Source: Stappia stellulata
GTDB lineage: Bacteria > Pseudomonadota > Alphaproteobacteria > Rhizobiales > Stappiaceae
DNA: 64,000 nucleotides
Direction of reading: 5' to 3'
Assembly (NCBI RefSeq): GCF_020176715.1
Contig: NZ_JAIVMF010000002.1
Location: 124,001-188,000 of the forward strand
Shown here: positions 1-18,886 of the stretch, piece after piece
Layout of the letters: each line of letters begins with the position of its first letter
How positions within the stretch are numbered: the stretch's first letter is position 1
Position numbers and translations under genes: made by a program
Notes under the pieces: generated by a model
Told to the model about the DNA's origin: nothing
The model's database searches: none
Seen by the model: only the letters and a program-made list of their open reading frames with translations

Positions 1-1261
1 AGCCGCCGCGAATGACGGCGAAGGCTGCCGGCCGGTTCATGAACTCGCGCGGATGGCGTCCCTTGAAGAAGGGATCCATGTCCTTGTGGTCGTAGAAGTT
101 TGTCCTGGTCCATTCCCAGGTGTTGCCGGCCAGGCCGCGCACGCCGTAGACGCTTTCGGAGCCTTTGCGGGCAGTCGCCGGCTGGACGGTGCGTGCGGGC
201 GTTTCGTCGCTGTAGGTCCGCAGCAGGTCTTCCCAGTCGGCCATGGACGCGACCGGACGGCCGAAACAGGTTTCGACGTAATTCGCCATTTCGGGCTCGA
301 ATGTATCGCCCCAGGGGTAGACGTGGCCGTCGGGGCCGCGCGCCGCCTTTTCCCATTGGGTTTCGTCGGGCAGGGCCTTGCCGGCCCAGTCGGCATAGGC
401 CCAGGCGTCGTACCAGTCGACGCCGGTCACCGGCAGGGCGGGATCGGCGAAGCGCGGGTCGCGCCAGTGGGACGGCGTATAGTCCTTGTTGGGGGGCGCG
501 TCCGGGTGACCGACCTTGTCGGGATGGGCGCGGGCGTAGTCGAGAAAGACGGCATAGTCGGCATTTGAGACGGGATCGCGGTCGATGTAGAAGGCGTCGA
601 CATGGACCTCGCGCCGGGGCAGGAAGTCCTTGTAGAAGAACGGGAAATCCTCGACGGAATCGACGCCGGTCACCGCCGGGCCTTCCGGGATGTGAACCAT
701 GGTGGAAAGATCGGGCTCGCGCGCCCGCTTGCGGTCGAGAAGCGCGCGATAGGGGGCGAGAAAGTCGTTTTCGCGCGCCTTGAGTTCCGTCGGGTCGGTG
801 CTGTCGAAAATCGTGGTCAAGGCATGTTTGGTGAGCGAGGCGCCGATGCCGACCGGCTTGCGCTTGTAGTCCTCGCGGGTGAAATAGCTCGGCCAGCCGG
901 AAATGCGCACCAGATGCGAGACGGCGCGCGGTTCGCGCAGCGCGCCGCAGTGGCGAATGGCGCGGAAGGCGACCGCGTCGACCGCGTCATGGGTGGCCTC
1001 GCAGAGGAGCTCGCGCGCCGGCAGATAGTGCGACCAGGCATGGGCAATGTCGCAACCGACGACGCGCACCTGCCAGATCGGGTGGTTGATCGCCGCCTCC
1101 AGGCGCGCCATGCCCTCTTCCGGGCTGGGCGCGGCTTCAAGCTCCGCGCGCACCGCCTCGACCTGTTTCCAGAAGGCCGTGTCATCGAGCGCGTGAAAGG
1201 CCTCGGCCGTCTCGGTGTCGGACGTCTTTTGCGGCGTTCGCGTCATGGTGGCGGTCGTCAT
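1..1261 (-). CDS. Formylglycine-generating-enzyme (SUMF1/FGE-sulfatase) family protein, C-terminus cut by window edge
   Basis: About 420 codons are visible before the reading frame leaves the left edge. Residues about 30-150 look helical and HEAT-like. From about residue 190 there is an FGE/SUMF1-type domain with hallmark strings VTGVDWYDAWAYADWAG, LPDETQWEKAARG, YPWGD and LAGNTWEW, ending at VIRGG at the edge. Known members oxidise a cysteine to formylglycine in sulfatases, or act as iron sulfoxide synthases such as EgtB and OvoA. There is no DinB domain as in EgtB/OvoA, and the region that would hold the copper-binding cysteines of true FGE lies outside the window, so the reaction cannot be assigned. 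The start ATG overlaps the stop of the metallo-beta-lactamase-fold gene by 4 bp (ATGA), so the two are translationally coupled. The family call is firm; the role as a tailoring enzyme for the adjacent peptide/NRPS locus is inference. Confidence 0.88.
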   Translation of the reverse strand, partial: MTTATMTRTPQKTSDTETAEAFHALDDTAFWKQVEAVRAELEAAPSPEEGMARLEAAINHPIWQVRVVGCDIAHAWSHYLPARELLCEATHDAVDAVAFRAIRHCGALREPRAVSHLVRISGWPSYFTREDYKRKPVGIGASLTKHALTTIFDSTDPTELKARENDFLAPYRALLDRKRAREPDLSTMVHIPEGPAVTGVDSVEDFPFFYKDFLPRREVHVDAFYIDRDPVSNADYAVFLDYARAHPDKVGHPDAPPNKDYTPSHWRDPRFADPALPVTGVDWYDAWAYADWAGKALPDETQWEKAARGPDGHVYPWGDTFEPEMANYVETCFGRPVASMADWEDLLRTYSDETPARTVQPATARKGSESVYGVRGLAGNTWEWTRTNFYDHKDMDPFFKGRHPREFMNRPAAFAVIRGG

Positions 1262-2646
1262 GCGGACATCTCCCTTTTTGCCGGCAGCGCACTGTCCGGT
1301 TCATCGCGTGACATGCTCGGGGGCACGGCGGTGTGCCGGCGCCTCAGATGGGTGACGAAGAAGGACGGATGGTGAAAGATCTCGGTCAGCAGATTGTCGT
1401 TCGAGACCCACAGTCCGAAGGCGTTCGGAAACAGGATTTCCGCGTCGAAAAGGCCTTTCAGTGTCGAGGGATGGAGCCAGCTGTAGCCGCCGGCCGGAGG
1501 TCCTTTTGCAGGACGCGTGCTGAATGAGCCGCCGGCGATGTCGAGGGCGTAGTCGACATCCAGCCCGTTGCCGTCGCTGAGCCGCAGGGTGACGGGGCGC
1601 GGGCTTGCGCAATGCCGGCTCCAGTAATAGGTGCCGACGAGGCGGGCCAGAACCGCGCGAACGAGATCGTCCGGGTCGCCTTCGAAGGCGGCTTCACCAT
1701 AGGACCCCGGCCGGAATTGCGGAATGGCGGCATCGGGATCGAGTTCCAGGTCCGCATAGCTTTCGGCCACCTCGTCCGCCCGGTGGTGTCCGGCCGGCTG
1801 GATCTCGACGGGGCGCCCGGCGGAAAGCACGAAGCGATCGCCCGGGCCGGGCAGGTGGCTGCGGTTGCCGCGCTCCTGCAGCGCCTCATGCGCCTGAAGG
1901 GGCGTGAAGGGGAAGATCTTGCGGTTGACCCAGGCGAAGCGGTCCGCGGCATCGATGCCGTCGACCCGCCAGCCGAAGGACGAGGGCACGGTGAGCTCCG
2001 CGCCGAAGAGATCGGTGTAGGTGTCGAAGGCGTCGCGGCAGCGTCTTTCGAACAGTCCGTAGTCGGCGGCCTGCTTGCGTTCCAGCAGCGGCGCGGCGGG
2101 GGACGTGGAATGGCTCGGGATGAAGGCAACGTCGATCGACGGCTCCCGGTCGCGAAAGTAGGCCTCGGTCTTTGGATGCAAGATGGCATCGCCGCCGAAA
2201 ATCGCACGCGTCCCTTGCGCTTCCAGCAGATACAGGAACTCCGGAAACATCACCTTGGAGGGCAGGGCGGTGATCGTCAGATCGCGGAAACCCACCTCCT
2301 GGAGCGGCTTGACGGCAACGAGCCGCTGAAAGCCCAACTCGCGCAGGATCCAGGGGATCGCCTTGTAGCCCATGCCCGCGCCGCTGTGGACCGGCAGTTT
2401 CTCCGCGTCGGGATGAATGACGATCGCATCGCGGTTGATGGCCGCGAGCGAGTCCACGTGGAGGTGATCGCAATGGTGGTGGCTGATGACGAGCACGTCG
2501 ATGCGCGGAAGAGAGGCAGGCCGTTCGCTGACAAGGTTGCGGCGCCAGAAGCGGTCGAGGCGGGGCGTCAGCCAGGGATCGAAGGCAAGCGTCGCGCCGT
2601 CGGTTTCGACAAGAAAAGAGGAATGGCCGAGGGAGGTGATGATCAC
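1258..2646 (-). CDS. Metallo-beta-lactamase-fold hydrolase with an extra C-terminal domain
   Basis: The protein has 462 residues. The N-terminal half is a metallo-beta-lactamase fold opening MIITSLGHSSFLVE, with FDPW as in UlaG-like proteins, and the metal motif HxHxDH at His56-x-His58-x-Asp60-His61. A further metal-ligand-like segment, FGGDAILHP, follows. Residues about 250-462 form an additional region that I do not recognise. The family includes UlaG lactonases and phospholipase-like hydrolases; the substrate here is unknown. It sits between the 40-aa peptide gene (172 bp upstream) and the FGE-like gene (ATGA overlap), so it probably acts in the same pathway, perhaps as a hydrolase releasing or maturing the product. 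Confidence 0.85.
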   Translation of the reverse strand: MIITSLGHSSFLVETDGATLAFDPWLTPRLDRFWRRNLVSERPASLPRIDVLVISHHHCDHLHVDSLAAINRDAIVIHPDAEKLPVHSGAGMGYKAIPWILRELGFQRLVAVKPLQEVGFRDLTITALPSKVMFPEFLYLLEAQGTRAIFGGDAILHPKTEAYFRDREPSIDVAFIPSHSTSPAAPLLERKQAADYGLFERRCRDAFDTYTDLFGAELTVPSSFGWRVDGIDAADRFAWVNRKIFPFTPLQAHEALQERGNRSHLPGPGDRFVLSAGRPVEIQPAGHHRADEVAESYADLELDPDAAIPQFRPGSYGEAAFEGDPDDLVRAVLARLVGTYYWSRHCASPRPVTLRLSDGNGLDVDYALDIAGGSFSTRPAKGPPAGGYSWLHPSTLKGLFDAEILFPNAFGLWVSNDNLLTEIFHHPSFFVTHLRRRHTAVPPSMSRDEPDSALPAKREMSA

Positions 2647-2780
2647 GCAGGAGCTCCCGTCGTCAAAACTGTGTTGCCGGCTTGCGGTCGCATGGCCGGT
2701 CGGCTGGAGACCATGAAGCTTGCTGCCCAGCGGTGCAGTGGCGGTAAATCCCGACCGGGCGCGCTTCCGGCCGGGGTGTC

Positions 2781-2807
2781 GACGCGCGACCTTCAGGCGC
2801 GCGCGTC
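2781..2807 (-). promoter_or_regulatory. Stem-loop between the small peptide gene and the enzyme genes
   Basis: The arms GACGCGCG and CGCGCGTC are a perfect 8-bp inverted repeat with an 11-nt loop, 11 bp after the peptide stop codon. There is no U-tract on either side, so it is not a simple terminator. A hairpin here could stabilise the peptide message or reduce read-through into the enzyme genes, as in many peptide-precursor operons. The role is inference. Confidence 0.45.
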
Positions 2808-2818
2808 AACAGGGGCGA

Positions 2819-2941
2819 TCACCACTTTTCGGCGATCTGGCTGTCTTCGTCGTTGCCGGCATCGCCGTCCTGCATCCGCACGAGGGTTTCTGCCTCGCTG
2901 AGGGTCACTTCGTCGATTTCGACCTCATATTCGTGGCTCAT
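2819..2941 (-). CDS. Small acidic peptide, 40 aa, candidate precursor or carrier peptide
   Basis: A 41-codon ORF starts MSHEYEVE and ends AEKW. It has 13 Asp/Glu against one Arg and one Lys, no Cys, and a DGDAGNDED stretch near the C-terminus. A strong ribosome binding site, AAGGAG (2949-2954), lies 7 nt before the ATG, and the upstream DNA is AT-rich with palindromes. It is the first gene of the leftward unit, followed by a stem-loop and the metallo-beta-lactamase-fold and FGE-like genes. I know of no family match. Size, acidity, RBS and position fit a ribosomally made precursor or scaffold peptide, but a small structural or regulatory protein is possible. Translation is likely; the function is inference. 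Confidence 0.6.
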   Translation of the reverse strand: MSHEYEVEIDEVTLSEAETLVRMQDGDAGNDEDSQIAEKW

Positions 2942-2968
2942 CGTTGGACTCCTTCATTGTGTCTATAA

Positions 2969-3004
2969 GTTGTTGACTCATGCCAACAACAACGTAAGAT
3001 TACG
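2969..3004. promoter_or_regulatory. Two palindromes in the divergent promoter region
   Basis: The AT-rich gap between the peptide gene and the methyltransferase (2942-3176) holds GTTGTTG-N8-CAACAAC at 2969-2990 and CGTAA-GA-TTACG at 2993-3004. Both are perfect inverted repeats. They lie just upstream of the peptide RBS and within reach of the rightward promoter, so one regulator could control both arms. No regulator gene is adjacent in the window. Confidence 0.5.
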
Positions 3005-3176
3005 TACTCTAAATATGCACGTCAAGCGGGAATATTTGTATCGTAACAAGTACTAATTGTTATTTCTTGAAGAGTTTCTGAGGCTTGCATGAGCCGGACG
3101 GCAGCGCAGGCGCGCGTTGGCTTTCGTCGAAATGCACGTATGTGTTGCAGGAGTATGCCGAATGAAGGAGGCGCCG

Positions 3177-4022
3177 ATGGCGGGTTCGGACGACGCGCGA
3201 TCCAGTGAGGGGCCGAGCGGTGCCGAAGCGCAGGGCGAGGCCTGGAAAACGGCCTTCGGCGACGCCTATCTCGATCTCTATGCGACCGAATTTTCCGAAA
3301 GTCTCGACAGGACCCAGGTCGGAGACATCCTTGAGCTGCTTGATATTGGCGCCGGCGCAAGACTGCTCGATGCCGGCTGCGGACAGGGGCGGCATCTGCG
3401 CCAGTTTCTCGCCCGCGGTCTGGAGGCGATCGGCCTCGACTTCTCCGGCGACATGCTGAGAGCCGCCCGTCGGAGCGGTCTCCCCGAAACGTCCCTCGTG
3501 CAGGGCGACATCCGGCGTCCCCCCTTTCCCGATGAAAGCTTCGATGTGGTGGCGAGCCTCTATACCGCCTTCGGGTTTTTCGATGATCCGGCCCAGGACC
3601 TCACGGCACTCACGGCCTTCCGGCGCTCGCTGCGGCCCGGCGGATGGCTCATCCTGGAGACGATCCACGCAGGGGCGGCCGCGCGCTCCTGGCCGGCCGA
3701 CAAGGCCTATCCCCTCGGGCCGTCGATCACGGTGCGCGAGCGGAACCGGCTGGACTGGGAACTGGACTGGGAAACCGGCACGCTTGATCAAGTCGTGACG
3801 GTGGAAGGGCCGGATGCGGCGCCGCGCGTCTTTGCAACGCGGCTGCGGATCTATTCGCGACAACGCCTGACGGAACTTCTGGACGCCGCCGGCTTCGTCG
3901 ATATCGCCTGCATGGAGGGGCTGCGAACCGATCCCGACGCGGCGCCGAGCTTCGGGCCGCTGCGTCCAGAGTCCTCCCGCATTGCCTGTATCGGCAGGCG
4001 CCCGGTCCATGCGGATGCGTGA
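3177..4022 (+). CDS. Class I SAM-dependent methyltransferase
   Basis: The protein has 281 residues from the chosen ATG at 3177, which has AAGGAGG 6 nt upstream; in-frame ATGs at 3162 and 3117 are less well placed. SAM-binding motif I is LLDAGCGQGRHL, followed by the acidic residue in IGLDFSGDML and the post-II region LRPGGWLILE. This is the fold of small-molecule C-, N- or O-methyltransferases of the Methyltransf_25/11 type; the acceptor cannot be read. It is the first gene of the rightward arm and overlaps the NRPS start by 14 bp, which suggests that it methylates the NRPS product or a precursor. Confidence 0.85.
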   Translation: MAGSDDARSSEGPSGAEAQGEAWKTAFGDAYLDLYATEFSESLDRTQVGDILELLDIGAGARLLDAGCGQGRHLRQFLARGLEAIGLDFSGDMLRAARRSGLPETSLVQGDIRRPPFPDESFDVVASLYTAFGFFDDPAQDLTALTAFRRSLRPGGWLILETIHAGAAARSWPADKAYPLGPSITVRERNRLDWELDWETGTLDQVVTVEGPDAAPRVFATRLRIYSRQRLTELLDAAGFVDIACMEGLRTDPDAAPSFGPLRPESSRIACIGRRPVHADA

Positions 4023-7000
4023 CGGCTTGCAGGTTTCGCCGCGCAATCCCGCGTGCGGTCCGGTTCAGGCCGTGGAGCGCCGATCGCTGGCCGCCGCGCT
4101 CGACACCACCCTGGCCCTGCATGGCGCCGGCATCGCGCTGGTCGATGCCGGCGGCGCGCGCTCCTACGCCGATCTGCGCCGGGCCGGCCATGCCGTGGCC
4201 GCCTATCTGCACGACAAGGGGATCGCTCCGGGGGACCGGATCGCGCTTGTCGGCGGCCGGTCGGCGGCGCTTGTCGCCGCGCAGATCGGCTGCCTGTTTG
4301 CCGGTGCCGTCCCCGTGCCGCTCGATCCGGCGCATCCGCGCGACCGGCTGCGGATGCTGCATGAGGAGGCAAGGCCCCGCCTTACCCTTGCAACCGATCC
4401 GGGCGTCGATCCGGTGGAGGGGACGATCCAAGCGCTTGAGCCCTTCGCCCTGCCGGCGGTGGACGGCGAGCAATGGCTTTCAGATGATCCCGACATCCCG
4501 GCGGTGGTCTATTTCACCTCCGGCTCGACCGGCCGCCCCAAGGGCGTTCTCACGGCCCAGGACGGGATCCTCAACGAAGCGACCTGGACGGCGCGGGCCT
4601 TCGCGCTGGAGCCTGGAACGCGAACGGGATGGACCGCGTCCTCTGCCTTTGCCGTCAGCCGCTGGGAGGTCTGGTCGGCGCTTCTCGCCGGTGCGGAAAT
4701 CCATGTCGCCGCCGACGCCGATCTTGCCGACGGGCCGGCCTTTGCCCGCTGGCTTGAGAGAACGGGCGTCGCGGTCACCTTTCTGGCGACGGCGCGGGCC
4801 GGCATGCTGCGGCGGGCGGATTTCACCCACCGGTGCCGGTTGCGGCTCCTGATCGTCGGGGGCGATGTGCTGCGCGCGGTGCCAGAGGTGCCCGAGACCT
4901 GCGCCCTCATAAACGCCTTCGGCATCACCGAGGCGTCCAGCGTGCGCAGCGTCGAGCCGCTGACGCAGGGGGCGGCCCCGGATGGCGCCATCGGCTTTCC
5001 CATCGCCAATACCGCATTTTACGTGGTGCGGGCCGATGGCCGTTTGGCCGGGCCGGGCGAGACCGGTGAGATCCATGTCGGCGGGACCGGGCTTGCCATT
5101 GGCTATCTCGACCGGCCGGAGGCGACGGCGGAGCGGTTCGTCCGGCCCGCTTTTTCCGGCGGCGCGCGGGTCTATCGCACCGGCGATCTCGGCCGGATCG
5201 ATCCCGAGACGGGGCGGATCTTTCTCTCCGGTCGGGCGGAAAACGATGCCAAGTTCGGCGGCGAACGCATTTCGGTGGAAGAGATCGAGCAGGCGGTTGC
5301 GGGACTTCTCCGACGGCCGGATCTCTGCGTCGTCGACCGTGGCGTTGAGGCCCGGCCCCGGCTTGTCGCCTGGCTTGCGGAGACCGCCTGGACCTTGCCC
5401 GAAGCCGCGCTGCGGCGTGCCTTGCGGGAGAAGCTTCCGGTCGCGGCCTGCCCCGATGTCTATGCCACCGCGCCGGGTCTTCCGCTCAATGCCCATGGCA
5501 AGATCGACCGAACCGCGATTGCCGCCTGGCCGCTTCCCGACTGGTCGGGAACGCGCGCCCTGACCGACGCTGAAGCCCGCGTCGGGCGGCTCTGGCAGGA
5601 GATCACCGGTCTTGCTCCGCGCGGGCCGGAGGACCGGTTTTTTGCCACTGGCGCAACCTCGCTCGATGCCATGCGCCTGCTGGGCGGCATCGCGCGGATG
5701 GTCGGCGTTTGGCTCGAACTCGGTGACCTGTTTGCCGATGACCGTCTGTGTTTTATCGCTGAGCGGATCGGTGCGGCAGGCCGGTTGGAGACGACCGTAT
5801 TCGAGGGCGCGGAGGAGGGAAGCCAGTTACCCGCCCTGCCGGAACAGGTCGGCATCTGGTTCGCCGAGCAGGGATCGCAGGGCCATCCGCGCTACAATGA
5901 AGCCTTTCTGTTCAGCTTCGACGCCGCGCTTGGGCGCGAACAGGTGGCCGGTGCCGTGCGTGCCGTTCTGGCGTCCTGCGATGCGCTGGCGCTGACGATG
6001 CGCGAGAGCGCCGGCGCACTCCGGATCGTGCCGGCCGATCCGCTCCGGGTCGAGGAGGCGCTTGCCGCGCTTGCGGTTGACGACGGGACCTTCGACCCGG
6101 ATGCCGTCGCTGCAACCCTGATGGCCGATCCGTTCGATTTGGACACCGGCCCCTTGTTCCGCGCCCGGCTTGTCGCGGCACCCGACGGCCGCAGCGTGCT
6201 CGTTCTCGTGCTTCATCATGCGATTTGCGACGGCTGGTCGCTCGCCGTCCTCGCCCGTGAATTCGCCCACCGGCTTGCGGCGGGCGATGCGGCAGATGCG
6301 TCCGCGCCACCGGCCTTCCGGGCCTGGATTGCGCGCAGGCAGGCTGCCTCTCGCGACGCGGAGGCCGACGAGGCCGGGCACGGGGCCGCCTTTGGCGCAG
6401 ATGGCTGCTATGCGGGCTTTGAAAGCGGCATGGAGCAGGCGCCGGCTCCCTTTTGCGACAACCCCGACGGGCGGCTGGTCGTCGAGACGCTGCCACTTGC
6501 GGCGGACGACCGGGCGCGGATTGTCGCCTTTGCGCGGGCGCAGACCACGACGCTTTTTCGCATCGGGCTTCTGGCTTTCGCGACGCTTCTCTGCCGGCTC
6601 GGCGACCGCGACCGCAGCCTGGTCGGTGCTTTTGTCAGCGCGCGCCGCGAGGCAGCCGACTTCGAGACGGTCGGCCTGATGACGCAGACGGCGGTGCTGC
6701 CGCTGCGCATCGACGAGGAGGCAACGGTCGCGGCAAACCTTGCAGGGACCGGTCCGGCCCTGGCTGCCGGGATCGATGCCTCGCGCGCGGGCATTGCCCG
6801 GCTCGCTACGGCCTTTGCCGAGCGTGGCATGGATGTGGCCGCCGTTGCGACCTTCAGCCACGAGCAGGATCCGGACCTGTCCGGCGCAGGGCTGGTTGCC
6901 GCCAGCCACCGTCCGTCGCCCTTCGCCAAGTTTCCGCTTTCCGTGACGCTGATGGAGGATGCGCAAGGCGCGCTCCGGCTCGTTGGCGAGGCCGCGGTTC

Positions 7001-10000
7001 CGGCCGCGGAGCTGCGCCTGTTTCTCAAGCGGTTGCGCCGTGTTCTCGACTGGATGTGCTGCTCGCCGGAGCTTGCGCTGGCGGATTGCCCTGTCCTGCT
7101 TGATGGCGAGGCGGAGCGTGTCTTTGCCGCCGGCGCCGGGGCTGTCCGGCCGCAGCCGCCGTTTCTGACCGTGTCGCACGGCATCGAGGCGGATCTTTCC
7201 GCCCGGGCGGATGCGCCGGGTCTTGTCCGGGACGAGCGGACGTTGTCGGCGGGCGAGGTTCTGACCCTTGTCGGGGGGGCGGAGGCCTTGATGCGCGCGC
7301 ATGATGTCGGACCCGGCGACCGTGTCGCGGTTCTGTCCGGGCCGTCGATCGTTTGCGTTGTCGCAATGCTTGCAATCTGGCGTCGCGGCGCGGCCTTCGT
7401 GCCGATCGACCCGGCCGCGCCCGAGGCGCTGATCCGCCAGATCGCCGGGGTGGCGGAGCCACGGCTGATCGTCGCGGCCGATGGCGCATCCTGGCCGGCC
7501 GACGGTTCTGTGCTTGCCCTCGACACCGAGACACTCGACCGCCACGCGCGGCCGCTGTCAGGCCCGAGCCTTGCCGATCCGGACGGGATTGCCTGGATCT
7601 ACTTCACCTCCGGCTCGACGGGCGTGCCGAAGGGGGTCGCCGTGGCCCATCGGGCGGCGCGCAACCATTCGCTGCTCGCCGAATTCGTCAGCGATATCCG
7701 GCCGGAGGACCGGGTTCTGCAGTTCGCCTCGCCAAGCTTCGACGCCTACATCGAGGAGGTCGTCTATGCCTGGACCCATGGCGCGGCGTTGGTCATTCGC
7801 GACGACGCCATGATGGGATCTCCGGCCCGCTTCTTCGACCGCATCCGCGAGCAGGGCGTGACCATCCTCGACCTGCCGACGGCCTGGTTCCATTTCATTG
7901 CCGCCGGCCTCGACACGAACGAGGCGCGGGCCGCCTTGCGCCCTGTCCATACGGTTATTTTCAGCGGCGAGGCCGCGCGCCCCGATGCGGTCGACGCCTG
8001 GCGCGCGGCGGTCGCGCCTTCCTGCCGGCTCGTCAATGTCTATGGCCCGACGGAGTGCACGATCTCCTGCACCTATGGCGATTTGCGCGATCCCGACCGT
8101 CCCGTCAGCGTCGGTGTTGCGGCGCCCAACACCTATTGCCGAATCCTTGATCGGCGCCGCCGGCCGCTTCCCTTCGGGACCTATGGCGAACTTTGTTTCG
8201 GCGGATTGTGTCTGGCGGAAGGCTATGTCGGCGCGCCGGAGCGGACGGCGGAGCGCTTCGTGCCGGATCCCTACGGGGAGGCCGGAAGCCGGCTCTATGT
8301 CACCGGCGACCGGGCGATGCTTTTGGCCGACGGAACCATCCATGTCAGCGGCCGTCAGGACGAGATGGTGAAGATCCGCTCGCAGCGGCTTGAACTCGGC
8401 GATGTGGAGGTCGTTGCCCGCCGTCATTCCGGCCTTGCCGATGCCGCCGCCTTCCTCCCCGGGACCGAGCCCTTCGCCGACCATCTGCTGATGGCGATTG
8501 TCCCGCGCGATCCCGAGGTGTTCGATCCGAAAGCGTTTCGCGCCCACATCGCCCGGTATCTGCCGGCCGTGGCCGTGCCGCAGCGCCTGCTGGTTCTCGA
8601 CCGCATTCCGTTGACGACCGCCAACAAGATCGACCGGCGGTCCTTGCGCGCCCTTGCCGCAAAGCAGGCGCGCGATGCCGCGGACGCCGCCACACTGGCG
8701 AGCTCCGACGCGGATCCGGAGGGCGGGTCGACGCAAGGCTGGATCCTCGCGCGCTTCCGCGCCGCGCTGGGGGATGCGGGTTTGCCGGCGGATGCCGACT
8801 TTTTCCTCGGCGGCGGCAATTCGCTGCTTGCGATGCGGTTGCTGGGCGAGATCGGGCGCCGCTTCGGGGCCGGTCTTCTCTATTCCGAGTTTCGGGCCCA
8901 TCCGACGCCGAAGCGGCTTGCCGCCCTGGTGGAGGCGCGCGGTCCGACCCGGCCGGTGCGCGATCCGGCGGCCGTGCCTGTCGCGACCGACAGCGCGCCG
9001 CCGCTGCCGATCCAGGCGGCGAAGCTCAAGGTCATGGTGGAGCAGGGCGACGGCGGCGCCTGGAACCAGCCCTATGTTGCCGCCTTCGATGACGGGATCG
9101 ACGCCGACCGCCTGCAGGCGGCACTCGAGCGTCTCGCCATCGAGCATTTCCCGCTCTCCGCCGTATGGGACGGCGACGCCGGGCTGTGGCGGCGGGGAAA
9201 GGGGTGGCCGGCGCATGTCCGCCGCGCCGTTCGCGACCAGGCGGAGGCGCAGGTGGCGATTGCCGAGGAATCCTGGCGGCCCTTCGACGTGACCCGCGAG
9301 CCGTTGTTTCGTGTTGTTCAGGTGGATCTCCCAGATGGCGCGTCCTGGCTTGCCTTCGTCTCGCACAACATCATGGTATCGGGGCAGGCGAACGACTATT
9401 TCACCGCGGTGATGGAGACGGCATCGGGCGACGCGGATATGGTTCGTCCGCGCGAGACCGATTTTCCGCATCTCGTTGCCTGGCGCGCCGGTTGGGAGCG
9501 GGATCGCAGGGCGGCCGCACGGCGGACCTGGATCGATCGCTGCGCGGCGGTCCGCGACTGGCCGGTCTATGAGGCGGCTGAGGTCAATCCGGTCGATCAT
9601 CGCGTCGCGATCCTGCCCGAAGGCGCCGAGGCCGGGTTTGTCGAGGCCATGCGGGCGGCGGGCGTGACGGTGGCGGCCGGGCTTGCCCGCATCCTGCAGG
9701 ACTTGCCGGAGGCGCGAGCCGGGCTGCTCGGCGTTCTTGTCGACGGGCGCGAGGCGGCCGGCTTCGGCGGCGTCTTCGCGCCGATGGCGGCAACCCTGCC
9801 GCTGGTGGTCGACGCCGGGCGCAGGGGAGACCTTGCCGCCATTCAGCACGGTCTCGACACGGCAATCGACGGTTATCCTTTCACGCTCAGCATGCTGGAA
9901 GAGGGGCTGCGGGAGAGCGGCCGGCTCACCGAACGGGAGCGGGCCGCCTTCGTGACGCTTTCGGTCGAACAGCCCATGGCCGTGCCGGTCATCGGCGGGC

Positions 10001-10218
10001 GACGCGGCCGCTGGCTTCGCGAGGTCAACGGCGCGCTGCGGCGGGAGGACACGAAGACCGTCTTCCCGCTCGCGCTCAATGTCGAAATCGATCCGCAAGG
10101 CTGGATCGTTGAGGTAACCTGTTCCACACAACTCCTGGGCGCATCGCGGGCCGAGGCCATTCTCGATGACGTGGTGGGCGCGCTGACCTCGGTGCAGGCC
10201 ACCCGTCGCAGCGCCTGA
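4009..10218 (+). CDS. Two-module non-ribosomal peptide synthetase, A-T-C-A-T-C
   Basis: About 2069 residues (start 4009 or 4015; the 5' end overlaps the methyltransferase). Domains in order: adenylation 1 (about 20-510; FTSGSTGRPKG near 169, YRTGDLGR, NAHGKIDR); carrier 1 with phosphopantetheine Ser551 in GATSL; condensation 1 with an intact HHxxxDG motif at His736-His737 to Asp741-Gly742; adenylation 2 (FTSGSTG near 1199, VYGPTEC, NKIDR); carrier 2 with Ser1605 in GGNSL; and a final condensation-like domain (about 1665-2069). There is no thioesterase or reductase domain. Adenylation 1 has Ala215 where the alpha-amino-binding Asp normally sits, whereas adenylation 2 keeps it (Asp1245). The last condensation domain reads SHNIMVSG (1785-1792) in place of HHxxxDG. 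The protein would load a starter that may lack an alpha-amino group, join it to an amino acid, and release by an unusual route. Confidence 0.93.
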   Translation: MRMRDGLQVSPRNPACGPVQAVERRSLAAALDTTLALHGAGIALVDAGGARSYADLRRAGHAVAAYLHDKGIAPGDRIALVGGRSAALVAAQIGCLFAGAVPVPLDPAHPRDRLRMLHEEARPRLTLATDPGVDPVEGTIQALEPFALPAVDGEQWLSDDPDIPAVVYFTSGSTGRPKGVLTAQDGILNEATWTARAFALEPGTRTGWTASSAFAVSRWEVWSALLAGAEIHVAADADLADGPAFARWLERTGVAVTFLATARAGMLRRADFTHRCRLRLLIVGGDVLRAVPEVPETCALINAFGITEASSVRSVEPLTQGAAPDGAIGFPIANTAFYVVRADGRLAGPGETGEIHVGGTGLAIGYLDRPEATAERFVRPAFSGGARVYRTGDLGRIDPETGRIFLSGRAENDAKFGGERISVEEIEQAVAGLLRRPDLCVVDRGVEARPRLVAWLAETAWTLPEAALRRALREKLPVAACPDVYATAPGLPLNAHGKIDRTAIAAWPLPDWSGTRALTDAEARVGRLWQEITGLAPRGPEDRFFATGATSLDAMRLLGGIARMVGVWLELGDLFADDRLCFIAERIGAAGRLETTVFEGAEEGSQLPALPEQVGIWFAEQGSQGHPRYNEAFLFSFDAALGREQVAGAVRAVLASCDALALTMRESAGALRIVPADPLRVEEALAALAVDDGTFDPDAVAATLMADPFDLDTGPLFRARLVAAPDGRSVLVLVLHHAICDGWSLAVLAREFAHRLAAGDAADASAPPAFRAWIARRQAASRDAEADEAGHGAAFGADGCYAGFESGMEQAPAPFCDNPDGRLVVETLPLAADDRARIVAFARAQTTTLFRIGLLAFATLLCRLGDRDRSLVGAFVSARREAADFETVGLMTQTAVLPLRIDEEATVAANLAGTGPALAAGIDASRAGIARLATAFAERGMDVAAVATFSHEQDPDLSGAGLVAASHRPSPFAKFPLSVTLMEDAQGALRLVGEAAVPAAELRLFLKRLRRVLDWMCCSPELALADCPVLLDGEAERVFAAGAGAVRPQPPFLTVSHGIEADLSARADAPGLVRDERTLSAGEVLTLVGGAEALMRAHDVGPGDRVAVLSGPSIVCVVAMLAIWRRGAAFVPIDPAAPEALIRQIAGVAEPRLIVAADGASWPADGSVLALDTETLDRHARPLSGPSLADPDGIAWIYFTSGSTGVPKGVAVAHRAARNHSLLAEFVSDIRPEDRVLQFASPSFDAYIEEVVYAWTHGAALVIRDDAMMGSPARFFDRIREQGVTILDLPTAWFHFIAAGLDTNEARAALRPVHTVIFSGEAARPDAVDAWRAAVAPSCRLVNVYGPTECTISCTYGDLRDPDRPVSVGVAAPNTYCRILDRRRRPLPFGTYGELCFGGLCLAEGYVGAPERTAERFVPDPYGEAGSRLYVTGDRAMLLADGTIHVSGRQDEMVKIRSQRLELGDVEVVARRHSGLADAAAFLPGTEPFADHLLMAIVPRDPEVFDPKAFRAHIARYLPAVAVPQRLLVLDRIPLTTANKIDRRSLRALAAKQARDAADAATLASSDADPEGGSTQGWILARFRAALGDAGLPADADFFLGGGNSLLAMRLLGEIGRRFGAGLLYSEFRAHPTPKRLAALVEARGPTRPVRDPAAVPVATDSAPPLPIQAAKLKVMVEQGDGGAWNQPYVAAFDDGIDADRLQAALERLAIEHFPLSAVWDGDAGLWRRGKGWPAHVRRAVRDQAEAQVAIAEESWRPFDVTREPLFRVVQVDLPDGASWLAFVSHNIMVSGQANDYFTAVMETASGDADMVRPRETDFPHLVAWRAGWERDRRAAARRTWIDRCAAVRDWPVYEAAEVNPVDHRVAILPEGAEAGFVEAMRAAGVTVAAGLARILQDLPEARAGLLGVLVDGREAAGFGGVFAPMAATLPLVVDAGRRGDLAAIQHGLDTAIDGYPFTLSMLEEGLRESGRLTERERAAFVTLSVEQPMAVPVIGGRRGRWLREVNGALRREDTKTVFPLALNVEIDPQGWIVEVTCSTQLLGASRAEAILDDVVGALTSVQATRRSA

Positions 10219-10251: not shown

Positions 10252-11316
10252 ATGTGGACTGCGACATACGAGCCTTTTGTGGTTTCGCTTGAGGACGCCG
10301 GCACCCGCATCCGGCCGGTCGCGGCCGAGGCCGCACAGCCCATGCTGAATTTCCCGGTCCTGCGGCCCCGTTACCTGCCGCCGGACACAAGGATGACCGA
10401 GGCGCTTTTGCGTGTCGAGGCGCCGCCGACGGAGGATGACGCCGTCGAGCGCGGTGCCCGCCCGCCCGACTGGACGAGCGCCAACACCTGTTCCTACCTG
10501 ATGCGGTTTGCAGGGGCGAGGCGGCGCTTCCGCCTGAAGCAGTTTTTCTATGACTGGGCGCCGCCGGCCTGCGACCATCCGCCATTGTGGGCCGGCGCCG
10601 TCCGGCCCGTGCCCTCGGTTCCGCCCTATGTGACCTGGATCGGCACGGACTTCATGGAGCGGGCCGGGGCCACGTCGCGCATCAACCGGACCTCGGTGGA
10701 GATGTCGATCGCCGAGGGCGCCTATACGGACGAGGAGATCGCCGCGATCTTCAGCGGTCTCGAGCCGGTCGACGGGCAGGCCGCCCGCGTGCTGGAGTCC
10801 CAGTCCTTCGCGAAGCTGACCTATTGGTCGCGCCACGACCTGCCGGTCGTCAACGTGCCCTACGGTCTGTTCCGCTTCGGCCGCAGCGACGACGCCGAGC
10901 GAAGCGCCTGGGCGAGCGGTGCGCTCGAGACGCCTGGCATTCGCCAGCCCCGGCTCGATCCGGCATCGGGTTTCGCGCTCGACAGCACCGGCCTGTTCGG
11001 CGACGCGGAAACCCGCGAGGTGGAACTGATTTTCACCGCACCGCCTGGACGGGGCCGCGAGGTCCGCTTCATCCTGCAGGCCGGCGACAGGGGGCGCATC
11101 GCCTGGCCGCCCGTTGCTTCCTCCCACCCTGCCAATGGCGAGACGACAACCCTGAACGGGGCGGAGGCGCATATCCGCTTTATCGACGAGGCGGTCGGCC
11201 CCTGGGCCGCGGTCTTTGAGCGCGCCGGCACCCGCGCCCTCGTCATGACGTCGTCCGCGCATGGCCATGACAGGGCATGGTTCATGGATCTTCTCGCCAA
11301 GACAGATTGGAGCTGA
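10252..11316 (+). CDS. Unrecognised protein of the NRPS operon, 354 aa
   Basis: I do not recognise a family. The sequence has no signal peptide or membrane segment. It is rich in aromatic residues (FRLKQFFYDWAPP, VTWIGTDFMERAG) and looks like a soluble globular enzyme or binding protein. It starts 33 bp after the NRPS with a GAAAGAGGGGGAGCAAGCC-type RBS and is followed 1 bp later by the exporter, so it is part of the same transcript. It could be the missing release or tailoring enzyme, but nothing in the sequence proves that. Confidence 0.8.
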   Translation: MWTATYEPFVVSLEDAGTRIRPVAAEAAQPMLNFPVLRPRYLPPDTRMTEALLRVEAPPTEDDAVERGARPPDWTSANTCSYLMRFAGARRRFRLKQFFYDWAPPACDHPPLWAGAVRPVPSVPPYVTWIGTDFMERAGATSRINRTSVEMSIAEGAYTDEEIAAIFSGLEPVDGQAARVLESQSFAKLTYWSRHDLPVVNVPYGLFRFGRSDDAERSAWASGALETPGIRQPRLDPASGFALDSTGLFGDAETREVELIFTAPPGRGREVRFILQAGDRGRIAWPPVASSHPANGETTTLNGAEAHIRFIDEAVGPWAAVFERAGTRALVMTSSAHGHDRAWFMDLLAKTDWS

Positions 11317-11317
11317 T

Positions 11318-12541
11318 GTGACGGAGGATCAGATCGCGCGCCCGGCCCGGCTGGACTGGCGGACCCGCATCCTCCTCTATGGCTACGGTTTTTTCGACGG
11401 GCTGATCCTGATCTATCCGGTCTATCTGCTGTATTTCCGCGATCAGGGCCTGAGCGAGACGGAAATCGCCACGCTGTTGATGCTGTGGCCGATTTCCTCG
11501 CTGCTGTTCGAATTGCCATCGGGCTATCTCGCCGACCGCTTCTCCAAGAAGACCATTCTCGTGGTCGGGCATGTCGCCTATCTCGGCTGTTTCGCCGTCT
11601 GGCATGTCCTGCCCACCTTCACCGGCTTCGGGATCGGACTTGCCCTTTGGGGCATGCGCGGGGCGCTTTCCTCCGGGGCCTTCCGCTCCTTCCTTTATGA
11701 GGAGATGGAGGCGCGCGGCACCCGCAACGCATTCGTCCAGGTGCTCGGGCAGATCAATGCGCTGAAATGGACGGCCATGCTGGTGGCCTATTCGGTCGGC
11801 CCGGCGCTGATGACCTTCGGCTTTACCCTGGTTCTCGCCCTGACGGCCACCGCAGCCGTCATCGCGCTCGCCGCGCTTCTTCTCGTGGAGCGCAAGGCAT
11901 CGCCTGTTGCCGATGACGACACGGCAGGCTTCGGCGGGTTTTTCCGGGCCCTGAACAGCCATGTGCTGCGCGAGCCCTCCGTCTTGCGGGTGGTCCTTTT
12001 CGGCGGAGCGCTGCTCGGCACCGGGGCGGTCGATGAATATTGGCCGCTGCTCGGGACCGATCTCGGCGTTCCGGAAACGGCGCTCGGCCTGTTTCTCGGC
12101 GCCATCATGGGCGCGCAGGCGCTTGGCGATCTGCTGGCCCACCGCCTTGCCGCGCAGAGGCCTCTCTTCGTCGGCGCGGCGGTCGCCGGCGCGGGGGCCC
12201 TGCTTCTCTTCGGCGTCGCATTCGGAACCCTCTATGTGGCCCTGCCGGCGGTTGTCGTTTTCGCCATGCTCTATCAATGCGCGGTGACCGCGAATTCCGG
12301 TCTCTTGCACGACCGGGTCGAAGGGTCCGTTCGGGCAACCGCCGCATCGATCCTGGGGTTTGCCTCCAACATCATCTCCATCCTGCTGTTTTACGCGATC
12401 GGCCAGATCTCCGAGCGCGCCGGCGTGCCGCTCGCCATCGCCTGCGCCGGCGGGGTTTTCCTGATCATCGGCCTTGCCGGCATCCGTATGGAGCAGAAAG
12501 CCGGGCGCCTAGCGGGCGAGCGTGGCGGCAAGGACGCATAG
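11318..12541 (+). CDS. MFS transporter, probable product exporter
   Basis: The protein has 407 residues from GTG 11318, which directly follows the upstream stop (11316) with GGAG about 5 nt before. An in-frame ATG at 11261 would put 56 bp inside the previous gene and is unlikely. The protein has about 12 hydrophobic segments and an MFS loop 2-3 signature (SGYLADRFSKKTILVVG). As the last gene of the NRPS arm it most likely exports the product or gives self-protection. Its 3' end overlaps the convergent TRAP gene by 33 bp. Confidence 0.85.
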   Translation: MTEDQIARPARLDWRTRILLYGYGFFDGLILIYPVYLLYFRDQGLSETEIATLLMLWPISSLLFELPSGYLADRFSKKTILVVGHVAYLGCFAVWHVLPTFTGFGIGLALWGMRGALSSGAFRSFLYEEMEARGTRNAFVQVLGQINALKWTAMLVAYSVGPALMTFGFTLVLALTATAAVIALAALLLVERKASPVADDDTAGFGGFFRALNSHVLREPSVLRVVLFGGALLGTGAVDEYWPLLGTDLGVPETALGLFLGAIMGAQALGDLLAHRLAAQRPLFVGAAVAGAGALLLFGVAFGTLYVALPAVVVFAMLYQCAVTANSGLLHDRVEGSVRATAASILGFASNIISILLFYAIGQISERAGVPLAIACAGGVFLIIGLAGIRMEQKAGRLAGERGGKDA

Positions 12542-15603: not shown

Positions 15604-15727
15604 TTTGCGTGCCGCGACCTCGGCGGTTCGCCGCCGCCGTCCCGTCCAGCGGGTCTGCCTCGCCAAACGCGGAACTCAGACACCGAAGTCCCGTTTGCAA
15701 TCCACAAGGTGCCACCAGGAGGGAACC

Positions 15728-16588
15728 ATGAATTACGGTCGCTTTTTTGCAATGATCGCCACATCGACGGTGGTGATGTTCGGGCTGATGTATCTGAACA
15801 CCTATCTCGTCGGCCACGCGTTCTGGTCTGAGACCCGCGCCTATATGGCACTGGTCATGGGGGCGACGATGGCGATCATCATGCTCGCCTACATGCTGTC
15901 GATGTATACGGACCGGCGTTTGAACATCGCGATCTTCACGGGGTCTGTGGTGGTCTTCGCTGTCGCGCTGTGGCTCGTCCGCAGCCAGATAACCGTCGGG
16001 GACCGCAGCTACATGAGCGCGATGATCCCGCATCACTCCATCGCGATCATGACCTCAAGCCGCGCCGATATCCGCGATGCGCGTGTTCGCACCCTGGCCG
16101 ATGACATCATTTACGCCCAGGACAAGGAGATTGCCGAGATGCGGTATCTCATCGCGGATATCGACGCCAATGGCCGAAAGACCTTCGCAGGCGAGCGCGA
16201 ACCGGCCTCGCTCGTCACTGCCGAGGAGGCGCTTGCCAGCGAGAGCGTATCGACGGTGGATCCGGAATTCCTGAGCGATGCGGAAATCGCCGCAGCCTTT
16301 CCCGACGGCAACATCGCCTGCCGCTTCACCTACACCGAGGACAGCCCTCCCGTGCTGGTCGTCGCGGAGAACACCGAGGGACCGGCCGCACTCGTCAAGA
16401 TCAGCGGGGATCTCGTCCGTCTGTCCGGTGGCGACGCTGCCGGGACGAGCGGTGCCGGTTTCGAGGCCGGGCCGCTTGCCGCCACGCTCCGCCCGACCGG
16501 AGACGGAGGCCTGTTCGACTTGGTCGTAAGTGCGGGGTCGGAGTACCGGGCCGGGTTCCGGGGCCAGTATGTCTGCGCGGGCCAATAG
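15728..16588 (+). CDS. DUF305 membrane protein with C-terminal extension
   Basis: The protein has 286 residues from ATG 15728 (RBS AGGAGGG); the longer in-frame start is rejected. There are three N-terminal membrane helices (about 7-30, 37-59, 65-84), then a DUF305 core with the signature MSAMIPHHSIAIM and a helix AQDKEIAEM. A beta-rich tail of about 120 residues carries two Cys (IACRF and QYVCAGQ) that could form a disulfide. DUF305 proteins occur in metal and copper contexts. It forms an operon with the glutaredoxin-MauE gene (9-bp gap) under a CueR-like promoter, so a role in copper handling in the envelope is likely. Confidence 0.85.
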   Translation: MNYGRFFAMIATSTVVMFGLMYLNTYLVGHAFWSETRAYMALVMGATMAIIMLAYMLSMYTDRRLNIAIFTGSVVVFAVALWLVRSQITVGDRSYMSAMIPHHSIAIMTSSRADIRDARVRTLADDIIYAQDKEIAEMRYLIADIDANGRKTFAGEREPASLVTAEEALASESVSTVDPEFLSDAEIAAAFPDGNIACRFTYTEDSPPVLVVAENTEGPAALVKISGDLVRLSGGDAAGTSGAGFEAGPLAATLRPTGDGGLFDLVVSAGSEYRAGFRGQYVCAGQ

Positions 16589-16597
16589 GAGAGCACC

Positions 16598-17359
16598 ATG
16601 ACGAAGGACACACCCCAAACCGCACGGCTTTACCGGATGGTGATGCCGGATCACCTCTGCCCGTTCGGCCTGAAAACGAAGGACCTGCTGCAACGGCAGG
16701 GGTTCAAGGTGGAGGATCACCCGCTCACCACCCGCGATGAGACCGATGCCTTTCTGGAGGCGGAGGGCGTCGAGACGACGCCCCAGGTCTTCATCGGCGA
16801 CGCGCGGATCGGCGGCTATGAGGAGTTGCGGGTGCACCTGGGGCTCGACCCGCCGCCGGAAGAGCAGAGCGATACGAGCTACCAGCCGGTCGTCGCGATC
16901 TTTTCCGTCGCGGCCCTGCTCGCGCTGGGCCTGTCGTTTCACCAGTATGGAACCGTGCTCAGCTTGCGGGCGGTCGAATGGTTCATCTCGCTGTCGATGA
17001 CGATCCTGGCGGTGCAGAAGCTGCAGGATGTGGAGAGTTTCTCCACCATGTTCCTGAACTACGACCTGCTGGCGCGCCGCTTCGTTCCTTACGCAAAGGT
17101 CTATCCCTTCGGCGAGGCGCTTGCCGGCATCCTGATGACCGCGGGTGTGTTTGTCTGGATTTCCGCGCCGGTTGCCCTGGTCATTGGCACGGTGGGGGCG
17201 GTGAGTATCTTCAAGGCGGTCTATATCGACAGGCGCGAGCTCAAGTGCGCCTGCGCCGGCGGCAATACATCGGTGCCACTTGGGTTCGTCTCGCTGACGG
17301 AAAGCCTGATGATGATGGCGATGGGGCTGTGGATGCCGGTGCGGGCATTTCTGCTTTGA
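16598..17359 (+). CDS. Glutaredoxin-MauE/DoxX-like membrane fusion protein
   Basis: The protein has 253 residues. Residues 1-90 form a glutaredoxin fold with one active-site Cys in LCPFGLK and the cis-Pro segment TTPQVFIGD. Residues about 105-250 form a MauE-like four-helix membrane domain with a paired cysteine motif, CACAGGN. MauE-family proteins pass redox equivalents for disulfide formation in the periplasm. Fused to a glutaredoxin, this one probably moves thiol redox power across the inner membrane. It is cotranscribed with the DUF305 gene. Confidence 0.85.
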   Translation: MTKDTPQTARLYRMVMPDHLCPFGLKTKDLLQRQGFKVEDHPLTTRDETDAFLEAEGVETTPQVFIGDARIGGYEELRVHLGLDPPPEEQSDTSYQPVVAIFSVAALLALGLSFHQYGTVLSLRAVEWFISLSMTILAVQKLQDVESFSTMFLNYDLLARRFVPYAKVYPFGEALAGILMTAGVFVWISAPVALVIGTVGAVSIFKAVYIDRRELKCACAGGNTSVPLGFVSLTESLMMMAMGLWMPVRAFLL

Positions 17360-17374
17360 ACCCGGCCTCCGGGC

Positions 17375-17398
17375 TTGACCTTCCCCCTGCTGGACGTC
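17375..17398 (+). promoter_or_regulatory. CueR-like promoter dyad upstream of APC permease
   Basis: TTGACC (17375-17380) overlaps ACCTTCC (17378-17384), followed after N7 by GGACGTC (17392-17398). The left arm is perfect; the right arm matches GGAAGGT at four of seven positions. This is weaker than the sites at 15580 and 18829 but has the same geometry. Confidence 0.5.
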
Positions 17399-17481
17399 GC
17401 CAGGGTGCATGGAAGGGCGGCGCCTCCTTCCAGCAACAGGTTTCATGAGGAAATCCGCAGCCGTCGTCGTTTGGAGCAGGC

Positions 17482-18786
17482 ATGACGGAGTACCGGAAAG
17501 ACAGCATCACCCTGCCGGGTGCCGTGGCGATGGGAACGGGCGTGATGATCGGCGCCGGCATTCTCGCCCTCACCGGGCAGATGGCGGAACTGGCGGGGCC
17601 GCTGTTTCCGCTGTCCTTCCTCGCCGGCGCGTTCGTTACGGCCTTCAGCGCTTATAGCTACATCAAGGTGTCGAACGCCTTTCCGTCCGCCGGCGGCATC
17701 GCGATGATCCTCGTCAAGGCCTATGGGCCGACGACGGTCGCGGCCGGGGCCGCGCTGCTGATGGCGCTGTCGATGGTCATCAACGAAAGCCTGGTGGCGC
17801 GGACCTTCGCGTCCTACACGCTGCGGGGGTTCGGTGTGGAGCCCGGCGGCTGGCCGGCGGCCGCGCTCGGCGTCGCGGTGATCGTTTTCGCCTGGCTGGT
17901 CAATGTTTCGGGCAACCGCTCGGTCAGCATCTTCTCCGTGCTGATGGCGGTCCTGAAGGTCGGCGGCATCGCCCTGTTCGGCGTGGCGGCGCTCTGGGCC
18001 GGCGGTTTGAGCTTCGAGCCAGCGGGAGGGGACGCGGGGGCCGGCGGATTTCTCGCCTCGGTCGCGCTTGCGGTTCTGGCGTTCAAGGGGTTCACCACGA
18101 TCACCAACAGCGGCGCGGAGATCACCCGGCCGCACCGCAACGTCGGGCGCGCGATCATCCTTTCCATCGCGATCTGCGTGGTGGTCTACCTGCTTGTCGC
18201 CCTTGCGGTCGGTGCAAGCCTGCCGCTGGAGCGCATCATTGCCGCCAAGGATTATGCGCTGGCCGAAGCGGCGGAACCGGCGCTCGGCCGGACCGGCTTT
18301 TATCTCACGGTCGCGCTGGCCGTCGTCGCCACGGCTTCCGGGCTCATCGCCAGCGTCTTCGCCGTATCGCGCATGCTGGCGATGCTCACCGACATGGAGC
18401 TGATCCCGCACCGCCACTTCAAGATGCCCGGCGGCGTCCAGGACCACACGCTGGTCTATACGGTCGTGATTGCCGGGCTGCTGACGGTCTTCTTCGACCT
18501 CAGCCGGATCGCGTCGCTCGGCGTGTTCTTCTATCTGGTGATGGACATGCTGGTTCACTGGGGCGTTTTCCGCAGCCTGCGCGAAGAGATCGGTGCGCGG
18601 GCGGAAATCCTGCTGACGGCGATCGCGCTCGATGTGCTCGTGCTGTCGGCCTTCGCCGCGCTGAAATGGCAGACGGATCCGGTGATCGTCGCGATTGCGG
18701 TCGGCGGCATGGCGGCGGTTTTCCTGTTCGTGGGAGTGTTCCTGCGGCTCCATCCGCCGTCCGGGGAGCATCACGGCCACCGGTAG
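17482..18786 (+). CDS. APC-superfamily amino acid/polyamine-type permease
   Basis: The protein has 434 residues and about 12 membrane helices. The APC helix-1 signature GTGVMIGAGILAL is present, with FKGFTTITNSGAEITRP in the helix 5-6 region. The family imports or exchanges amino acids and amines by cation symport. The C-terminus ends in a His-rich tail, HHGHR. It lies between copper-responsive-looking genes and has its own CueR-like site. This placement suggests a role under metal stress, such as import of a thiol amino acid, but the substrate is not readable. Confidence 0.85.
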   Translation: MTEYRKDSITLPGAVAMGTGVMIGAGILALTGQMAELAGPLFPLSFLAGAFVTAFSAYSYIKVSNAFPSAGGIAMILVKAYGPTTVAAGAALLMALSMVINESLVARTFASYTLRGFGVEPGGWPAAALGVAVIVFAWLVNVSGNRSVSIFSVLMAVLKVGGIALFGVAALWAGGLSFEPAGGDAGAGGFLASVALAVLAFKGFTTITNSGAEITRPHRNVGRAIILSIAICVVVYLLVALAVGASLPLERIIAAKDYALAEAAEPALGRTGFYLTVALAVVATASGLIASVFAVSRMLAMLTDMELIPHRHFKMPGGVQDHTLVYTVVIAGLLTVFFDLSRIASLGVFFYLVMDMLVHWGVFRSLREEIGARAEILLTAIALDVLVLSAFAALKWQTDPVIVAIAVGGMAAVFLFVGVFLRLHPPSGEHHGHR

Positions 18787-18828
18787 ACGTCGGGCGCTTG
18801 CGTCTCGCGATGGAGAGCGGGGCGAGCC

Positions 18829-18852
18829 TTGACCTTCCTGTGACTGGAGGGT
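18829..18852 (+). promoter_or_regulatory. CueR-type promoter of copA
   Basis: TTGACC (18829-18834) overlaps the dyad ACCTTCC-N7-GGAGGGT (18832-18852), a near-consensus CueR operator, 35 bp before the copA ATG. Copper-bound CueR-type regulators twist such promoters to activate them. Confidence 0.78.
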
Positions 18853-18886
18853 GCAGCGTGGCCGTCAAATCAGCTAGGAGCCTGAA

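Follow-up and report, generated by a model that had tools for sequence, protein, structure and literature searches.

Divergent operons around a short peptide gene

The window, that is, the whole stretch of 64,000 nucleotides of Stappia stellulata DNA analysed here, holds in its first part an ATG-started open reading frame on the minus strand, encoding a peptide of 40 residues plus stop, MSHEYEVEIDEVTLSEAETLVRMQDGDAGNDEDSQIAEKW. This frame heads an operon in which it is followed by a metallo-beta-lactamase (MBL)-fold gene and by a gene with a formylglycine-generating enzyme (FGE) domain, the two overlapping by 4 nt, and then, outside the window, by genes for a CobW-like GTPase, a protein named here Unk and a PNPOx-like protein. 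A divergent operon carries a methyltransferase, a non-ribosomal peptide synthetase (NRPS), a second Unk protein and an MFS exporter (Table 1).

Table 1. Features of the Stappia locus, in window coordinates unless another sequence is named
Feature	Position	Strand	Basis
Putative precursor/carrier peptide gene, C-terminal Lys-Trp	2819..2941	-	ORF translation; identity in L003 and L004; KW family
Ribosome-binding site AAGGAG, 7 nt before ATG	2949..2954	-	Sequence; kept in three Stappia loci
Operator-like palindrome GTTGTTG-N8-CAACAAC	2969..2990		Single genome site; conserved in Stappia
Promoter-like TTGACG-17-TAATCT, upstream of palindrome	2997..3025	-	Own reading; absent from the list of a consensus promoter scan
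Hairpin 1, 3' of peptide gene	2777..2811	-	Inverted repeat and folding
Hairpin 2, 9 bp, CCCGGCCGG / CCGGTCGGG, arms 2750-2758 and 2767-2775	2750..2775	-	Strongest in L004
MBL-fold enzyme, 462 aa; best matches among solved structures are CmlA-type non-heme diiron monooxygenases	1258..2646	-	Profile searches
HEAT-like + FGE-domain enzyme, 458 aa, running past the window edge; complete at L002:13886-15262	1..1261	-	Domain search
Methyltransferase, first gene of divergent operon; start codon uncertain	3117..4022	+	Domain search
NRPS, two adenylation, two condensation and two carrier domains; start codon uncertain	3982..10218	+	Domain search
Unk protein, no family; paralogue of Unk at L002:11731-12840; homologous to Streptomyces MBL-locus proteins	10252..11316	+
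MFS exporter	11261..12541	+	Domain search

An earlier note, made from the letters of this DNA, had described most of this arrangement. Its short frame with a well-spaced ribosome-binding site is real, the peptide being identical in three genomes; the palindrome upstream of it was found, and the order of an MBL gene and then an FGE-like gene downstream was confirmed. After the frame, where the note placed a stem-loop, there are two hairpins, but they fold just mildly better than shuffles of this GC-rich window (z -1.4, with z -2.0 for the whole leader), and the scan found no T-run terminator at the locus. The palindrome, with arms at 2969-2975 and 2984-2990, is the sole match to its pattern in the genome at up to one mismatch, a reversed control pattern also giving one match, and the idea of a regulon operator was rejected, the genome having no second site. 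A second frame on the minus strand (2925-2981, MSQQLIDTMKESNDEPRI, read by eye) starts inside the palindrome and ends within the peptide gene; it is open in L004 too, without a clear ribosome-binding site.

The Unk proteins, present as two paralogues in Stappia and as one copy in each of 8 Streptomyces loci with MBL, belong to no Pfam or NCBIfam family, and their predicted structure (pLDDT 56) gave no fold match at E 0.001 or better. The gene for the CobW-like GTPase (L002:12858-13897) lies between those for FGE and Unk in the Stappia operon, and tblastn found no copy of it in the Streptomyces stretches searched. Read by eye, the terminal condensation domain of the NRPS (9000-10218) has a degenerate HHxxxDG motif, SHNIMVSG, and, of its adenylation codes, the first is without the usual Asp235, while the second shows an acidic pocket, which suggests a basic substrate. 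Of the cluster genes that were scanned, none was recognised as a dedicated protease or a radical SAM enzyme. Farther along the plus strand, at 15605-21265, a probable copper island comprises DUF305, MauE/glutaredoxin, an amino acid permease and a P-type ATPase with YHS and HMBD domains.

Conservation within Stappia

The peptide is present in 3 of 87 genomes of the family (14 of them in the genus, the source genome included), with all 40 residues identical. The two other carriers, L003 and L004, are other species of the Stappia group, and against the S. stellulata gene there are four synonymous changes and no others, so that selection on amino acids, a point raised by the earlier note, is visible in substitutions that are synonymous throughout. 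The neighbouring proteins are less alike (identities of 78% for MBL, 67% for the methyltransferase and 88% for FGE), and per 40 codons their genes show on average 15.8, 16.8 and 12.8 synonymous changes (minima 9, 12 and 6) against the 4 of the peptide gene. So few synonymous changes indicate an additional constraint in Stappia at the level of DNA or expression, and about 100 bp upstream, together with the frame itself, are nearly identical DNA among the Stappia genomes. The gene could therefore also have a nucleotide-level role alongside its coding one.

The window peptide matched no Pfam or NCBIfam model, four relatives described below matched no NCBIfam model, and a PDB sequence search with the window peptide returned two chance matches only (E 0.07). 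The frame is nevertheless more than a product of chance, because just one of 1500 versions of the upstream region at the window locus, shuffled by dinucleotide, yielded a KW-ending frame with a Shine-Dalgarno (SD)-like site, and because an identical peptide occurs in two other species.

A Lys-Trp peptide at every HEAT-FGE locus opened

In samples of 397 genomes of the order and 398 of the phylum, MBL homologues at E 1e-40 were confined to the source genome. FGE homologues were confined to the same genome among 115 genomes of the class; an FGE profile matched 3 of 346 phylum genomes. An MBL search led to one Streptomyces locus (L005) and two Streptomyces plasmids, all three sharing FGE, MBL and Unk. 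At L005, a weak tblastn match to the peptide (E 0.083) turned out to be a frame ending AEKW-stop, and on the two plasmids MSDRDFIETRDAKQECSKW is the next frame before FGE. Between peptide and FGE stands an MFS gene in L005 and the MBL gene in Stappia. The MBL profile then matched 6 of 392 genomes of the Streptomyces group, all five new loci having a KW frame before FGE. A further FGE search matched 12 of 246 genomes, 11 of them with the peptide; in the twelfth (G1033), which has no KW peptide, the FGE match is limited to model positions 215-389. Finally, tblastn with the FGE of the window's genome found 23 plasmid records, all from Streptomyces, and the nine that were opened all carry the peptide. 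A plasmid search with the Stappia peptide gave no match, since members of the family have little in common besides KW.

Altogether, a peptide frame of 19-40 residues, with an SD-like site and an end of Lys-Trp plus zero to two residues, was found at all 24 opened loci that encode a HEAT-like + FGE-domain enzyme (HEAT-FGE). These loci, 3 from Stappia and 21 from the unrelated Streptomyces (2 of them S. clavuligerus), hold 14 distinct peptide sequences; they include 11 of the 12 genomes of the further FGE search, 6/6 MBL-profile matches and 9/9 of the opened plasmid records. L078, the same plasmid as L031, was counted once with it, and 14 S. clavuligerus plasmid matches were left out of the count. 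When the 14 sequences are aligned on KW, K and W are the sole common residues, with lengths of 19 to 40 residues and net charges from -11 to +8, and the amino acid sequences of the relatives are conserved within close groups. The peptides are missing from the gene tables examined, those of PLSDB being incomplete.

The MBL gene is present in 11 of the 24 loci, and searching with MBL found no match in nine longer stretches among the other 13, the remaining four being short stretches outside that search. Loci in which neither MBL nor Unk was found still have KW peptides, namely MTAEDFLGSREAGEAATKW (S. clavuligerus), MTYGSQWEKAASARSLKKRLPDADKW (S. xanthophaeus) and MKTLRQWNALRSQRKGGVRPAG-KYFKWAA or -SHFKWAA. 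In a tree of 21 FGEs, all four deep clades have the peptide, and the distribution of MBL and Unk needs at least two changes. Ligases recur nearby, as the NRPS of Stappia, condensation and adenylation-carrier proteins (L052), ATP-grasp and AsnB-like proteins (L010-type loci) or an ATP-grasp protein with an L-amino acid ligase domain (L053), and two loci contain little beyond peptide, FGE and MFS.

These results refine what the earlier note had proposed. A peptide precursor accompanied by tailoring enzymes is supported by the frame at each HEAT-FGE locus, its modification being presumed, and enzyme loci without such a frame were sought but none appeared among the 24. As to the enzyme pair named as partner, the FGE-like member is constant (24/24) but the MBL member is not (11/24). 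Acidity and the 40-residue length, given as features of the peptide, are peculiar to Stappia, the peptides of its relatives having 19-29 residues and net charges from -6 to +8. The conserved features are the C-terminal Lys-Trp and the FGE-like enzyme; acidity, length and the MBL partner are not conserved.

Several family members lie in settings of their own. A sister system of Streptomyces (L030, L031, L033 and L051), partly on plasmids, combines a 29-residue peptide ending KWAA with HEAT-FGE, and in the annotated L033 the cluster also has a phytanoyl-CoA dioxygenase, a second FGE, an MFS protein and a PNPOx protein. In S. clavuligerus, MTAEDFLGSREAGEAATKW is encoded at L032 13724-13783, where the gene table lacks it, and at L081 2224-2283, in both cases before an FGE-like gene, with LLM, PLP and P450 enzymes nearby; we take the surrounding genes to resemble those for tunicamycin. 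Streptomyces clavuligerus ATCC 27064, a strain in standard laboratory use, has one member of the family on pSCL4.

Chance controls and downstream hairpins

Since the KW end was one of the marks by which the peptides of the relatives were recognised, its conservation depends in part on the search, and controls by genome scan and shuffling therefore matter. Across both strands of 464,014 bases in 22 long sequences, some of which overlap (for example the window and L002), every ATG frame of 12-60 residues with an SD-like site and an end of KW plus zero to two residues was a family peptide or one of its alternative starts. Allowing GTG and TTG starts as well added one unrelated antisense frame, in L023. 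Within 1.5 kb on each side, none of 12 other FGE-domain loci of the same genomes had a KW frame, and the same test at HEAT-FGE places returned the peptide in 5 of 9; of the four misses of this short window, three (L062, L065 and L066) have an intervening MBL or MFS gene with the peptide just past it, and the fourth (L064) is a second copy of FGE within its cluster. Shuffled upstream regions of eight loci gave a KW frame in 0 or 1 of 1500 cases each.

In each of the 15 Streptomyces loci tested, a hairpin within 110 nt after the peptide gene is stronger than shuffles (z -2.8 to -8.7), and the hairpin sequences differ. The same test in Stappia gave the z -1.4 of the window, z -1.2 in L003 and z -3.0 in L004, and the three members of the sister system that were tested have a long hairpin after the peptide. 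Such a hairpin would probably let the output of peptide exceed that of the enzymes.

Features of the two enzymes

The FGE protein matches PF03781 and, below the cut-off, HEAT_2 (E 0.025), has no DinB domain by Pfam and scores far below the cut-offs of the EgtB and SenA models (98 vs 360 and 84 vs 420 bits). Among 21 sequences 61 residues are invariant, including H60, H252, D268, D282, D437, D441, H443 and E445. At the positions that we take, from an alignment by eye, to be those of the copper cysteines of FGE (424 and 429 here), there is an invariant S424 and L or V, respectively. The predicted structure of the protein was poor (pLDDT 41) and was left unused. The charge of the HEAT-like part is inverse to that of the peptide, strongly so only in the clade whose peptides are the most basic, a hint, from few lineages, that the two may bind directly.

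The MBL-fold protein has its best solved-structure matches in 8a90 and CmlA, both non-heme diiron monooxygenases (E 6e-10 to 4e-9), with NAPE-PLD (1.3e-7) and then a UPF0173 hydrolase (7e-6) close behind. The diiron ligand set of CmlA-type MBL-fold enzymes includes a Glu where a third His is usual. Here H56, H58, D60, H61, E136, D153 and H179 are invariant in 11 of 11 sequences, E136 not falling exactly on the CmlA Glu in the profile alignment. We read the protein as an oxygenase rather than a hydrolase, with a candidate diiron site.

A probable precursor or carrier peptide, and other readings

In our view the peptide is likely to be a ribosomally made precursor or carrier on which HEAT-FGE oxidises the Lys-Trp end, with the MBL-fold enzyme of Stappia acting further and the product feeding the NRPS. 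In the peptide, a short N-terminal part would serve for recognition, and the C-terminal Lys-Trp would be the core. The co-occurrence and conservation of peptide and enzyme are observed, and HEAT-FGE would probably bind the recognition part and oxidise the Lys-Trp end. In Stappia, further changes to these residues would probably be made by the CmlA-like MBL-fold enzyme and the Unk proteins. After cleavage from the peptide, the modified residue or residues would be built by the NRPS into a small molecule, which the MFS protein may export. Two features of ribosomally synthesised and post-translationally modified peptides are seen at these loci: the peptide frame lies beside its presumed modifying enzyme at all 24 of them, and the leader is variable in front of a conserved core, K and W alone being common to the 14 sequences.

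A Trp codon at most two residues from the end at all 24 loci, a hairpin after it in most loci tested and the constrained synonymous sites of Stappia would also fit an attenuation leader, in which ribosomes stalled at the Trp codon beside the stop codon sense tryptophan and the hairpin tunes the downstream enzymes; tnaC and the trp leader are precedents for such stalling. However, the amino acids are conserved within close groups, with synonymous changes only in Stappia, the Lys before the Trp is kept, up to two residues may come after the Trp, and the window locus has no T-run terminator, all of which makes regulation by stalling unlikely. The tight pairing with one enzyme could equally be that of a small unmodified protein partner that, for example, activates the FGE-like enzyme or helps it to assemble, but sequences that share only K and W when aligned suit a variable leader and a fixed core better than a folded subunit, and we regard such a partner as quite improbable. 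A structured 5' RNA element with an incidental frame, to which the near-identical DNA of the upstream region and frame in Stappia and the leader fold (z -2.0) might point, is very hard to reconcile with differences confined to synonymous positions of the frame and with Streptomyces peptide genes that vary in sequence and length while retaining the KW end.

For the precursor or carrier peptide, we lean on balance, with less assurance, towards a new class in which encoded Lys-Trp carriers serve HEAT-FGE, together in some loci with a CmlA-like MBL-fold enzyme, to make an unusual amino acid for NRPS, ATP-grasp or AsnB-like ligases. A literature search over titles and the beginnings of abstracts, mostly outside subscription papers, found no report that pairs a KW peptide with an FGE-like enzyme. 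In the available part of one source FGE domains appear only as fusions to bufferins (PMC12452194), and in that of another the mention of FGE is limited to FGE inhibitors (PMC13192320). The proposal names a likely substrate for a family of SUMF1/EgtB/PvdO-like enzymes. If it is true, peptide tailoring would gain a further enzyme fold, and ribosomal peptides would be connected with NRPS or ligase chemistry.

Comparison with known systems

The HEAT-FGE proteins share their C-terminal PF03781 domain with FGE/SUMF1, EgtB, SenA and PvdO, but they differ from this family in an N-terminal HEAT-like part, in having no DinB domain by Pfam and in not keeping what we take to be the copper cysteines. Formylglycine formation takes place at a CxPxR motif; Cys is absent from the window peptide and present in 1 of the 14 peptide sequences. 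A formylglycine system, which the earlier note had excluded for want of a Cys, was likewise rejected here, because the window peptide has none and the copper cysteines are also missing from the enzyme. As for the MBL-fold protein, the CmlA-type diiron beta-hydroxylases provide its best solved-structure profile matches, and a Glu is invariant among the 11 sequences.

PqqA and the mycofactocin precursor are tiny, a few of their residues becoming a small molecule, and PqqB has the MBL fold. A tiny precursor and, with PqqB, the MBL fold are thus shared with the PQQ and mycofactocin systems, which differ in the residues used, whereas here no radical SAM enzyme was seen in the genes scanned and the distribution is sporadic. 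Amino-group carrier proteins of the LysW type have a C-terminal Glu, and this assignment was rejected for the window peptide, which ends in Trp.

A close analogy is that with the pearlins, in which, according to the available parts of the sources, a residue is added to the C-terminus of a carrier peptide by a PEARL enzyme, modified and released (PMC9850906, PMC12715798, PMC9303977). The pearlins of ammosamide and 3-thiaglutamate (AmmA, BhaA, TglA) are likewise small carriers, AmmA and BhaA being acid-rich, and as those parts describe it the amino acid at the C-terminus (Trp in the case of ammosamide) is oxidised on the peptide and then released, much as would happen here. The TPR domain of a pearlin-modifying enzyme has been modelled, in the same parts, as holding the peptide. 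In pearlins, however, the Trp is appended by PEARL, whereas here Lys-Trp is genetically encoded. PF04738, the PEARL family, had no match in 5 of 7 genomes searched, that of the window included, and in the other 2 its matches lie on contigs other than that of the cluster. Membership among canonical pearlins was rejected because PEARL is absent, the Trp being encoded, and the pearlins were kept as an analogy. If the proposal is true, these peptides would be a tRNA-independent, encoded counterpart of pearlins, and HEAT-FGE would be, to our knowledge, the first FGE-fold family with a dedicated encoded peptide substrate beyond the sulfatase-type Cys.
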